A DNA stretch of 38,539 nt from a virus, in IMG/VR virus record IMGVR_UViG_3300047274_000230, positions 1 through 38,539 of that record; one strand, written 5' to 3'. Positions 12,594-37,515 of this stretch are shown here, one piece after another (position 1 is the first letter of the stretch; each line of letters opens with the position of its first letter). Made by a program: the position numbers and the translations under genes. Under the pieces are notes generated by a model. It saw only the letters and a list, made by a program, of their open reading frames with translations, searched no databases and was not told where the DNA came from.

Positions 12594-12779
12594 CTACCGG
12601 CGTCGTTTCATCCTGCGTTCCTGCTCTTCGTTGAGCAGCTCAAAATAACTGCTCCAAATCAACAGCTCCTCCATGGTTACTTCGGCATTGAGCCGAGCCA
12701 GCGAGTAGCCCAGCTCTTTTGCGACGCCGAGTTGTAACAACAGCAGGTTGTCTTTTTTGAGATCAGCCTTTAGCGCTTT
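12594..12779 (-). CDS. Tail assembly chaperone extension (T-like), reached by frameshift
   Basis: A 61-codon frame lies between the chaperone stop and the tape measure, +1 (equivalently -2) relative to the chaperone frame. It has no good start of its own until an internal ATG that would leave only 26 residues. Its translation (LGVAKELGYSLARLNAEVT, then MEELLIWSSYFELLNEEQE and a basic end) is the standard helical T-domain of phage tail chaperone GT fusions, which binds the tape measure. The frame has a stop (TGA at 12780-12782) just upstream, so the shift must happen between 12780 and 12763. The run of four A at 12777-12780 allows lysyl-tRNA on AAA to re-pair perfectly after a +1 slip. The fusion would be about 175 residues. 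Confidence 0.72.
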   Translation of the reverse strand, partial: KALKADLKKDNLLLLQLGVAKELGYSLARLNAEVTMEELLIWSSYFELLNEEQERRMKRRR

Positions 12780-13122
12780 TCATGTCAGTTTCCTGCTGCT
12801 CTTCTGGGTTGGTGATGATCGCCAGCATCATGGCTTGGAGATCAGCGTCAAGCACATCGTTTTTCAACTCGGCTATTTCCCCGGCCTGAAACAGGCGCTG
12901 CCCAGCTTCGTCAAGGGCTTTGGTAATCAGCAGGTTTAAGGCAAAGCCATTGGCCTCTTCGCCGCCAGGCATCTTTTGTGCGCGTTCACGCTCTGCCATT
13001 GTCAGCGCAGTGGCGTAAAACTCAAATACATCGCCGTTACTTAGCGTCACAGAGCGCTTGATTGGCGAAAGGTTGGCAGCCTTTTTCAGCCGAGCAAGAG
13101 CAGACGAAACAGGCGCAGGCAT
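12763..13122 (-). CDS. Tail assembly chaperone (G-like)
   Basis: A 119-residue acidic/helical protein (FEFYATALTMAERERAQK, then a helical middle and PEEQQETDMKSAKG at the end). Size, composition and position between the tail tube gene and the tape measure fit the G-type chaperone that keeps the tape measure soluble during tail assembly. It is the upstream part of a likely frameshift pair with the 61-codon extension; only the last five codons and the stop lie in the window where slippage can occur. A terminator upstream (13155-13181) separates it from the abundant tail tube transcript, so its level should be lower than that of the tube. Confidence 0.8.
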   Translation of the reverse strand: MPAPVSSALARLKKAANLSPIKRSVTLSNGDVFEFYATALTMAERERAQKMPGGEEANGFALNLLITKALDEAGQRLFQAGEIAELKNDVLDADLQAMMLAIITNPEEQQETDMKSAKG

Positions 13123-35290: not shown

Positions 35291-35836
35291 TTAGCTAGCG
35301 GGCTTAGCCGGAATATTAAACGTTTCCCAAGATGGCATTACGGTTCTGTTTTTGTTGTAGTGCCCCTTGACCGAATAGCTCTGCTCAACAGCTTCGGACA
35401 TCATGAAAACGACAATCTGGCCGATCAGCATTCCTGGCCAAACAGGCAGCCGGTGCTTTTGTCGAACGTTTTTAATCTCAAGGGTCAGTACAGACCCGTT
35501 AAAGCCCGGATCTATCCAGCCAGCCAGCATGTGCTGATAACCCTGTCTAGCGCGACTGGACTTAAGGACAAACTGCCCGGCAACCTCGTCGGTGAAATTA
35601 AAGGTTTCCTCCGTTTCAGCAAGGATGAATTCACCAGGCTGCAGCCAGTACGGATCCTCCTTGGTGTGCGTCTTAATGCTGTGCCTGATCAGCTCGGGGG
35701 TTTCGGCCACCTCAATCATGATGTTGTCGCCTAGCGCCACGTCGTAGCTGGCAGGGTTGAGGCGATCAGGATTAAAGGGATGAATCAGAGCGTGAGACTG
35801 GCACAGGGCACGGATCTCAGAATCAGGCAGCAGCAC
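35291..35836 (-). CDS. dcd: dCTP deaminase / dUTPase-family enzyme
   Basis: A 181-residue protein from a GTG start (6 nt after the endolysin stop). The dCTP deaminase pattern is clear: RLNPASYDVALGD (residues about 25-37), LQPGEFILAETEE, VLKSSRARQGYQH (about 91-102), AGWIDPGFNGSVLTLEI with E120 in the catalytic position, and a C-terminal VKGHYNKN. It converts dCTP to dUTP, or to dUMP in the bifunctional members, feeding thymidylate synthesis for phage DNA. It shares an operon with lysis genes, an unusual pairing. Confidence 0.88.
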   Translation of the reverse strand: MLLPDSEIRALCQSHALIHPFNPDRLNPASYDVALGDNIMIEVAETPELIRHSIKTHTKEDPYWLQPGEFILAETEETFNFTDEVAGQFVLKSSRARQGYQHMLAGWIDPGFNGSVLTLEIKNVRQKHRLPVWPGMLIGQIVVFMMSEAVEQSYSVKGHYNKNRTVMPSWETFNIPAKPAS

Positions 35837-35842
35837 GAAGCA

Positions 35843-36889
35843 CTAGTAAATCCAAACGACTTTAGGCCGGCCCGGACGTATGCCGCAATGGATGAAACCC
35901 TTTGGTGCGCCTAGACCCAAGCTGTACGGCCAGTGAACCTTGCACCACTCCTGCAGGTCGTAGATATTGACACCTTCAATGAAAAAATCAATCGCTCCGG
36001 TATCAGGTACGTCGTAAAGATGCTCTGAATTAGATGCGCCGCCAACTGAGCGATTGACAGCCGGAGGGCGATAACCGCTGGTAATGATGATCGGCTTACC
36101 GCCAAATGCAGCCCTTGCCTTTTCAAGGAAATTACACAGCACAATCGCCGTATCACACTGATGCTGTTTGTCAAATCTTCTAGCCTCTTGATTCAATGCA
36201 AGCTCGCCATATTTGATGTGTGGCGTAACGCGAAAATCAAACGGCTTATCTGGTGTCAGTTTCACGTCATTCGTTAAAGGCTTTACGCCATGGCAAAACA
36301 ACTCAACCTCAGCCCGGCGACGACGCACCAAACCCTCAAGGATCTTGCCATCCCCCTTGTTCCACCTCGGCAGCTCTTCCATCGCCACCTTGACGGGATC
36401 TTCGCCGTTATTCAGTCGCTTACGCAGTGTGCTTTCCTGCAGCGCACCAATGCCAACATTGAACGTAAAGCTGATCAACGCGCACCACTGATTATTCGTT
36501 AGATCAACCTTGATCCAAGTATCAACAGCACGGGCAAAGCGCTCAATATCAGACAGAAGCAACGCCTCAGCATCAGCCTGCGTGATCTTCAGGCCAGCCT
36601 TTACATTCGTGCCCGTATGGCCATAGCCGATTGTCCAGACACCAGCAGGACACAGATAAGCCTCAAGTCTGCAGCCCTCAAACTTTTTAATCAGCTCAAC
36701 AGCAGGCTGCAAGTCATCTTCCTGCTTACCCGACTGGCTCCATGTCTTAAACCAACCCTGATCGCGGCCAAGAATATGTGGATTCGCCTTTGAAATCACG
36801 GACTCCAATTCCGTAATTGCAGCCATCTGATGCGGTAATGCCCTGTAATACCGAAACAGGTCAATCAGGCGGATCTTGTTTTGCGTCAT
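35843..36889 (-). CDS. Bifunctional endolysin: GH24 lysozyme plus M15-type peptidase
   Basis: A 348-residue protein with two domains. The GH24 part (about residues 65-205) has IKKFEGCRLEAYLCPAGVW TIGYGHTG with the E-8-C-5-T triad (E71, C80, T86); the Cys replaces the Asp of T4 lysozyme, as in other phage lysozymes. The M15 part (about 225-348) has SGYRPPAVNR, the ASNSEH box (H290), GAIDFF (D301) and GFIHCGIR (H334), as in D-Ala-D-Ala peptidases. It thus should cut both glycan and peptide bonds. There is no signal peptide, so release depends on a holin. The ATG overlaps the frameshift extension upstream by 29 nt. Confidence 0.9.
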   Translation of the reverse strand: MTQNKIRLIDLFRYYRALPHQMAAITELESVISKANPHILGRDQGWFKTWSQSGKQEDDLQPAVELIKKFEGCRLEAYLCPAGVWTIGYGHTGTNVKAGLKITQADAEALLLSDIERFARAVDTWIKVDLTNNQWCALISFTFNVGIGALQESTLRKRLNNGEDPVKVAMEELPRWNKGDGKILEGLVRRRRAEVELFCHGVKPLTNDVKLTPDKPFDFRVTPHIKYGELALNQEARRFDKQHQCDTAIVLCNFLEKARAAFGGKPIIITSGYRPPAVNRSVGGASNSEHLYDVPDTGAIDFFIEGVNIYDLQEWCKVHWPYSLGLGAPKGFIHCGIRPGRPKVVWIY

Positions 36890-37127
36890 CGCTCCAAGGT
36901 GCGTGAATACTCATTGCGCCACCAAGTAAGCGGCTTTCACCAGTCTGCAGCACAGGGTCAATATCGTGATGCACAATCACTGGCGGCTCTATTGCCGGTG
37001 GCTGTGTAGCGTGCCACTCCTTTTCAGCCTGATCAAGCTTGGCCGGCAACGTCAGCTCAAACCACCACTGTCTGATGGCTTGCTCTAAACGACGCTGCCA
37101 GCCAGGCTTGCCAAAGCCGATCAGAGC
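36861..37127 (-). CDS. -1 frameshift extension of the small lysis-region membrane gene
   Basis: Frame of 88 codons before the stop (36861-36863), beginning where the slippery site ends. It has no plausible ATG start before the endolysin; a TTG at 37049 would give a 62-residue piece. Reading through from the slip gives LIGFGKPGWQRRLEQAIRQ, WWFELTLPAKLDQAEKEWH and an acidic/polar end (HDIDPVLQTGESR ... DPPD). The continuous sense-like sequence immediately after the slip, with Trp and basic helix, supports a real fusion. The full product would be 133 residues with an N-terminal membrane helix. No known family. Confidence 0.6.
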   Translation of the reverse strand, partial: ALIGFGKPGWQRRLEQAIRQWWFELTLPAKLDQAEKEWHATQPPAIEPPVIVHHDIDPVLQTGESRLLGGAMSIHAPWSDDAKQDPPD

Positions 37128-37133
37128 TTTTTT
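37105..37133 (-). promoter_or_regulatory. -1 ribosomal frameshift signal: A-AAA-AAG slippery site, 8-nt spacer, stem-loop
   Basis: On the minus strand the heptamer A_AAA_AAG (37127-37133) is in the zero frame of the 46-residue gene and two codons before its stop. After an 8-nt spacer (37119-37126) comes a perfect GGCTT/AAGCC stem with TGGC loop (37105-37118). This is the same slippery heptamer as in E. coli dnaX, with the spacing of a stimulatory hairpin. Confidence 0.8.
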
Positions 37134-37261
37134 CCTTTGATCGCACGCAGCGCGTGAAACAGAAGCTGAATAAGGCTGTTGTCCTTTAGCGGGGACAGTG
37201 CGATTAGCTCAGAAGCTGCAGCGACGCAAATCCAAAAAGCAGGATGGGAAAGGAAATCCAT
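37121..37261 (-). CDS. Small membrane protein, holin candidate (46 aa; frameshift start)
   Basis: A 46-residue protein: MDFLSHPAFWICVAAASELI, ALSPLKDNSLIQLLFHALRA, IKGKKL. A hydrophobic stretch (about residues 8-24) and an amphipathic helix (30-42) fit a small membrane-active protein. It follows the 83-residue gene by 2 nt, in a lysis region with an endolysin that has no signal peptide, so holin is reasonable. A portion of ribosomes should shift to make the 133-residue form. I recall closely similar short proteins from other cyanophages. Confidence 0.7.
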   Translation of the reverse strand: MDFLSHPAFWICVAAASELIALSPLKDNSLIQLLFHALRAIKGKKL

Positions 37262-37263
37262 GA

Positions 37264-37515
37264 TTAACAGGAGGGTGGCCTCCCTTCAAGCTTAGATACT
37301 CTTTGTTCTACCGTCGATAACCTATTGAACGTCTCCCGGCGGTCTTCCTTAATGTCCGTGTGAAGTACCTCAAGTTGAGTGGCAATATGCTCCACCGCAC
37401 TGGTTAGCCGGATTACAGCATCACGCGCTTCATCGTTACGTTTACTAAAACCCATGGCGCCCATGGCTGCCACCGAAATTGATGCACCGGCCACTGCGGC
37501 AACGATTTCAATCAT
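37264..37515 (-). CDS. Membrane-anchored coiled-coil protein, holin-like (83 aa)
   Basis: Residues about 3-23 (EIVAAVAGASISVAAMGAMG) form a small-residue-rich membrane helix. Residues about 27-78 are a charged coiled coil (RDAVIRLTSAVEHIATQLEV, LHTDIKEDRRETFNRLSTVE). An N-terminal membrane anchor followed by a coiled coil resembles XhlA-type lysis accessory proteins and some class II/III holins. It precedes the small membrane gene by 2 nt and the endolysin. I infer a lysis role. The ending is GRPPSC with a short tail. Confidence 0.65.
   Translation of the reverse strand: MIEIVAAVAGASISVAAMGAMGFSKRNDEARDAVIRLTSAVEHIATQLEVLHTDIKEDRRETFNRLSTVEQRVSKLEGRPPSC

Follow-up and report, generated by a model that had tools for sequence, protein, structure and literature searches.

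A predicted programmed −1 ribosomal frameshift in a small membrane-protein gene beside the endolysin gene of cyanophages

Does a 46-codon gene for a predicted membrane protein, lying just upstream of a phage endolysin gene, encode one protein or two? The question arises from the 38,539-nucleotide record of an uncultivated virus (IMG/VR IMGVR_UViG_3300047274_000230), the whole of which was analysed and is called the window here. Its virion genes are of siphovirus type, its host, judged from named relatives, would be a cyanobacterium, and the closest named match for its lysis region is the Synechococcus phage S-CBS3 (67% DNA identity where the two align). A sequence-only reading had noticed that the small gene ends just past a slippery heptamer while the −1 frame stays open; the coordinates that it gave for the heptamer, spacer, stem, −1 frame and 133-residue fusion are all correct on the minus strand (Table 1). 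The junction codons in the zero frame are GGA AAA AAG CTC TGA (minus strand). Read in the −1 frame, 88 codons stay open after Lys-Lys up to a TGA at 36863-36861, for a fused product of 133 residues, and the end of this extension overlaps the start of the endolysin gene by 29 nt. Between the heptamer and the 5-bp hairpin is a spacer of 8 nt (37126-37119, minus strand), and the large stem-loop beyond is built from arms at 37091-37104 and 37040-37053 and an inner stem that pairs 37073-37086 with 37054-37067. A dCTP deaminase-like gene (window 35291-35836, minus strand) lies directly after the endolysin gene.

Table 1. Positions in the window of the small gene, its putative frameshift signal and its neighbours
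Feature	Position	Strand	Basis
Upstream neighbour, 83-residue protein, phrog_26178	37264..37515	−	Profile match
Short zero-frame gene, 46 codons/residues	37121..37261	−	Open reading frame; phrog_22542 (function unknown), E=1.2e-28
Slippery heptamer A_AAA_AAG	37127..37133	−	Sequence; kept, or swapped for another X_XXY_YYZ, in relatives
Zero-frame stop TGA, one codon past the heptamer	37121..37123	−	Sequence
−1 frame extension, 88 codons + stop	36861..37127	−	Open frame; homologues; pN/pS 0.10
5-bp hairpin GGCTT-TGGC-AAGCC	37105..37118	−	Sequence; weakly conserved
Large stem-loop, begins 22 nt past the heptamer	37040..37104	−	Folding; likely 3′ stimulator
Downstream neighbour, endolysin	35843..36889	−	Phage_lysozyme E=4.7e-47; Peptidase_M15_3 E=1.7e-20

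A zero-frame A_AAA_AAG occurs only once in the roughly 9,600 codons of the phage's main genes. Contigs were fetched by a search with the extension alone, so that the heptamer was not selected for, and they carry A_AAA_AAG at the same place. The bases preceding it vary among relatives, AAAGG giving way to AAAGC, AAAAC or GCGCGT. S-CBS3, S-CBS1 and KBS-S-2A all have A_AAA_AAG and S-EIV1 has G_GGA_AAG; in the T7-like cyanophages WH11-B and S-B28, A_AAA_AAG stands directly before TAA and the tail is shorter and runs into the terminase region. Searches with the short protein brought in further contigs, some with A_AAA_AAC and others from a lineage that uses C_CCA_AAG, and a search of bacterial genomes returned 6 matches only, mostly metagenome bins.

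After dereplication, and counting junctions that have sufficient sequence downstream, 196 combine a canonical heptamer with a −1 extension and 26 have neither, leaving a handful of exceptions. The heptamer lies at most two codons from the stop, and a profile-recognised extension is open in the −1 frame across that stop, in 189 junctions (153 with A_AAA_AAG, 32 with C_CCA_AAG, 3 with A_AAA_AAC and 1 with G_GGA_AAG); in 7 further A_AAA_AAG junctions the extension is shortened (...LHIRSPW...) and escaped the profile. The stop follows the heptamer directly or after one codon in nearly all relatives, and where the type of heptamer changes, the new one is still of X_XXY_YYZ form and the extension still lies in −1. 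Natural losses of the heptamer (C_CCT_AAG, C_CCC_AAG and CCA AAG AAA CAG) come without the extension. The exceptions include one junction that has the extension with G_AAA_AAG (L033), one that has it with C_CCA_AAG four codons ahead of the stop (L266), and others, counted among the 26, that have a heptamer 4-6 codons ahead of the stop but no extension (L309, L329/L330). In a Cyanobium contig (L337), the short gene is followed by the −1 extension across a C_CCC_AAG TGA junction in which a GTG overlaps the stop, which suggests that stop-start coupling has replaced the frameshift there.

These contigs are not independent, and their kinship limits the weight of the junction counts. The tree of the short gene, which is poorly resolved, requires the extension to have been gained or lost about 7-8 times. 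There are 7 independent pairs altogether; 2 of them lie on well-supported branches, too few for a sign test there to reach significance. A separate argument comes from codon usage: because lysine elsewhere in the short gene favours AAG over AAA by about 2:1, and A occupies only 17% of fourfold third bases, the constant nnA AAA AAG is not a product of codon bias. As judged from these alignments, the heptamer is conserved in homologues beyond what the protein requires. The search of related phages that the sequence-only reading had proposed thus found the slippery site kept together with the open −1 frame, and homologues that lost either one nearly always lost both.

The extension itself evolves as a protein. 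Over its first 50 codons in 37 window-type relatives, the −1 frame has a pN/pS of 0.10, compared with 1.25 for the zero frame and 4.08 for the +1 frame, and changes cluster at third positions; by this measure, the extension is under purifying selection in the −1 frame only. Near the junction in the window, this frame contains no ATG, GTG or TTG and a single CTG. The first ATG, GTG or TTG past the heptamer in relatives falls at a median of codon 23; none occurs between the upstream stop and about codon 20 in 64 of 123 dereplicated loci, and the remaining loci have these codons at scattered positions. The earlier statement that the −1 frame has no good start of its own can be extended to the relatives, which share no conserved start codon, the Cyanobium contig L337 being the exception. 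In the public records of S-B28, S-CBS3, S-CBS1, KBS-S-2A and S-EIV1 the tail is missing, truncated or entered as a gene of its own; a conserved protein has thus gone unnoticed.

Two other routes to the extension were weighed. RNA polymerase slippage on the A run, giving mixed mRNAs from which a normal ribosome would read the fusion, has a negligible chance and was rejected: most relatives have six As and S-CBS1 has seven, six is short for polymerase slippage, and the C_CCA_AAG (32 junctions) and G_GGA_AAG members keep the −1 fusion with no homopolymer run longer than three.

Alternatively, the two frames could be separate genes, with ribosomes that end at the TGA reinitiating at a non-ATG start in the downstream frame. 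In the window, the CTG overlaps the stop and lies about 8 nt past AAAGGA, a GTG takes that place in L337, which has no canonical heptamer, and diverged homologues of the extension (L083-L091) stand alone with starts of their own. In relatives, however, the CTG becomes TTG, CTA or TTA, of which CTA and TTA are not starts, AAAGGA becomes AAAGCA, AAAACA or CGCGTA in many cases while AAAAAAG is retained, and some loci have no start-like codon at the junction at all. Reinitiation would also leave the kept X_XXY_YYZ heptamers and the constant −1 register unexplained. We consider it very unlikely, and reinitiation from the CTG/AAAGGA pair was rejected on this codon variation.

A programmed −1 ribosomal frameshift that makes two isoforms from 37261-36861 is, on the comparative evidence, very probably how this locus is decoded. 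Most ribosomes, in a proportion that we assume, would stop at the TGA at 37121 and release a 46-residue membrane hairpin. An assumed fraction, with tRNA-Lys in both P and A sites on A_AAA_AAG, would slip back by one base and continue in the −1 frame to a 133-residue protein, in which the same membrane part would carry a soluble tail consisting of a long helix and a conserved end. Both products would presumably be made in infected cells. A draft Cyanobium, the only host-type genome examined, gave 36 tRNA matches, with tRNA-Lys(UUU) as the only tRNA-Lys; in E. coli, where the same holds, A_AAA_AAG slips very readily (PMC5009743).

The closest parallel is E. coli dnaX, which has the same heptamer, a stop just after it, a 3′ stem-loop and a single tRNA-Lys(UUU), as in the host-type genome. 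The dnaX shift yields the shorter product, whereas the phage shift would yield the longer one, and the phage has no conserved upstream Shine-Dalgarno stimulator and a much larger stem-loop, 22 nt away. Transposases of the IS911/IS3 type also combine A_AAA_AAG, there with an elaborate 3′ structure, with a fusion that adds a C-terminal domain, but the phage gene encodes a membrane protein rather than a transposase, and no upstream stimulator was found in the phage. The proposal that a single gene gives two forms by a dnaX-type shift thus stands as to slippery site, −1 frame and missing start, but not as to the stem-loop as it was drawn.

That stem-loop, the 5-bp hairpin, had been taken as the stimulator of the shift. 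Of 36 close relatives, no more than 8 have it complete, and the 37-nt stretch that contains it is as stable as its shuffles (z 0.14); its poor conservation ruled it out as a key element. The larger stem-loop is a better candidate. A 94-nt fold that includes it reaches −47.6 kcal/mol (z −4.7). No other RNA found in the phage's genes comes near the stability of that after the heptamer, at −45 to −51 kcal/mol per 80 nt, the minimum in 245 background windows from this phage being −31; none of 300 codon-preserving shuffles was as stable. Across the window's lineage, the mean codon-shuffle z is about −2.9. The pairing of the large stem-loop holds in 81% of cells over 33 relatives, compared with 22-47% when slid and 80% when partners are shuffled, so the figure reflects conservation more than covariation, and covariation in the window's lineage barely exceeds that of shuffles. 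Three relatives (L143, L144 and L154) that differ in sequence here still have a strong hairpin at a similar distance. No shared structure after the heptamer emerged in the LIPxDG and C_CCA_AAG lineages. The large stem-loop, 22 nt downstream, would thus probably raise the slip rate in the window's phage, and is not a universal part of the signal: of the heptamer and stem-loop first proposed, the heptamer holds, and the structure has to be replaced by a larger one that is supported in the window's lineage only.

The phage frameshifts described in the literature consulted are mostly those of tail assembly chaperones. The lambda G/GT type resembles the present case in being a conserved phage frameshift that gives a short and a C-terminally extended form, but gene, position and product are unrelated. 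The window may hold a frameshift of that type as well. Between the genes for the major tail protein and the tape measure lies a 119-residue open reading frame (phrog_20784; window 12763-13122, minus strand), and after it an overlapping frame, KADLKKDNLLLLQLGVAKELGYSLARLNAEVTMEELLIWSSYFELLNEEQERRMKRRR (12594-12790, minus strand), is shifted by +1/−2 and has no obvious start; the two possibly form a second frameshift, of the tail assembly chaperone kind. The sequence-only reading knew of no described frameshift in a cyanophage lysis region, and none emerged from the open literature, outside which most subscription papers and all bioRxiv preprints fall: there we found no frameshift linked to a holin, an antiholin, an endolysin or a cyanophage. 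Nor is frameshifting mentioned in a paper on S-LBS1, a freshwater cyanosiphovirus, in which this phage is compared with S-CBS1 and S-CBS3.

What might the two proteins be? AlphaFold2 predicts the short protein to be a helical hairpin (helices 7-22 and 29-44, mean pLDDT 80), the first helix hydrophobic enough to span a membrane and the second amphipathic; its conserved motifs are A-x-SE and N-S-x-x-Q-L. In the model of the extension, one long helix precedes several short strands (mean pLDDT 79), and their overall arrangement is uncertain (pTM 0.36); the extension ends in a conserved LQTGxSRLLGGAMSIHAPW. The window's own extension has no match in Pfam or PHROG and no sequence match in the PDB. 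A fold search against the PDB found nothing, and one against viral models gave strong hits to F4YCT5 and A0A0C4K3N2, in our reading the homologues from S-CBS3 and S-EIV1, and a weak one to an S-PM2 protein. In WH11-B (L007) and S-B28 (L008), the shifted tail has the ending ...WSISLTSPW...; it lacks annotation and reaches into the small terminase region. Several of the diverged free-standing homologues with their own start, which come from other viral contigs, lie beside a nuclease-like gene, and no short protein was found on the contigs that carry them. Separately, a microvirus (L011, MH572431) has an unannotated open reading frame related to the short protein between its scaffolding and replication genes.

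The surroundings of the gene offer a clue to its function. An endolysin-like gene lies downstream of the short gene and extension in 111 of 140 loci. On the other side, 104 of 155 loci have a relative of the 83-residue coiled-coil membrane protein ahead of the short gene. The 83-residue protein has an N-terminal membrane segment, a probable coiled coil and weak XhlA-type and Rz-like matches. In the T7-like cyanophages, which are podoviruses, the short gene with its extension sits between tail fibre and small terminase, the position that the holin occupies in T7. On the strength of the endolysin downstream, the coiled-coil membrane protein upstream and this T7-like placement, we consider a lysis role for the locus reasonably probable.

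One reading of this neighbourhood accepts the frameshift and sees its main use in bringing ribosomes past the stem-loop as far as the start of the endolysin gene, so that endolysin synthesis is coupled to a fixed fraction of that of the short protein. The extension does end 29 nt inside the endolysin gene, the stem-loop does lie between both genes, and the endolysin gene is next in most loci (111/140). Against this, the extension is conserved as a protein (pN/pS 0.10), its C-terminal motif persists in the T7-like cyanophages, in which terminase and not endolysin follows, and its diverged homologues stand free, away from lysis genes. We regard coupling as an improbable main purpose.

A stronger competitor keeps the frameshift and gives up lysis: the product would be a membrane-anchored factor for assembly, packaging or host takeover, its tail binding a phage or host partner. 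The tail homologues that stand free beside a nuclease-like gene on contigs where no short protein was found, the distant microvirus relative of the short protein and the missing confident holin profile match all agree with such a factor, to which we assign an appreciable minority chance. It sits less well with the siphovirus-type loci, which consistently place the gene with the endolysin and the coiled-coil membrane protein, and with the podoviruses, which place it at the T7 holin position.

Within the lysis role that we prefer, the holin/antiholin-style pair first imagined for this gene fits the position, size and predicted fold of the short protein. Neither form has a Pfam match or a confident match to a holin or antiholin; the holin family phrog_1356 was matched by 2 of 56 short-protein members, with a best E of 0.0039. 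That the short form is holin-like and the long form a regulatory isoform is the version of the lysis role that we favour, though tentatively. As the minority isoform, the long form would delay or gate the holin-like form, or tie it to another lysis partner. The dual-start holin/antiholin S105/S107 of lambda likewise consists of two isoforms from one small membrane-protein gene beside an endolysin gene; the lambda isoforms differ at the N-terminus by choice of start, whereas those of the phage would differ at the C-terminus by frameshift, and the phage product is only a putative holin. The order of membrane/coiled-coil protein, small membrane protein and endolysin also recalls XhlA/XhlB/XlyA of PBSX, but the profile matches to that cassette are only weak. 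We know of no frameshift in XhlB.

The locus adds to the known phage frameshifts a predicted family of about 200 distinct junctions, complete with natural replacements and losses of the heptamer, and these natural variants could be put directly into reporter assays. It also supplies a candidate holin or lysis timer for these cyanophages. More speculatively, and with doubts that we hold to be considerable, the gene may be a lysis switch widespread in cyanophages, in which the frameshift would fix the ratio of a holin-like hairpin to a tailed isoform that gates it. If this is true, the clock that times lysis in these phages would be ribosomal slippage and not a second start codon.
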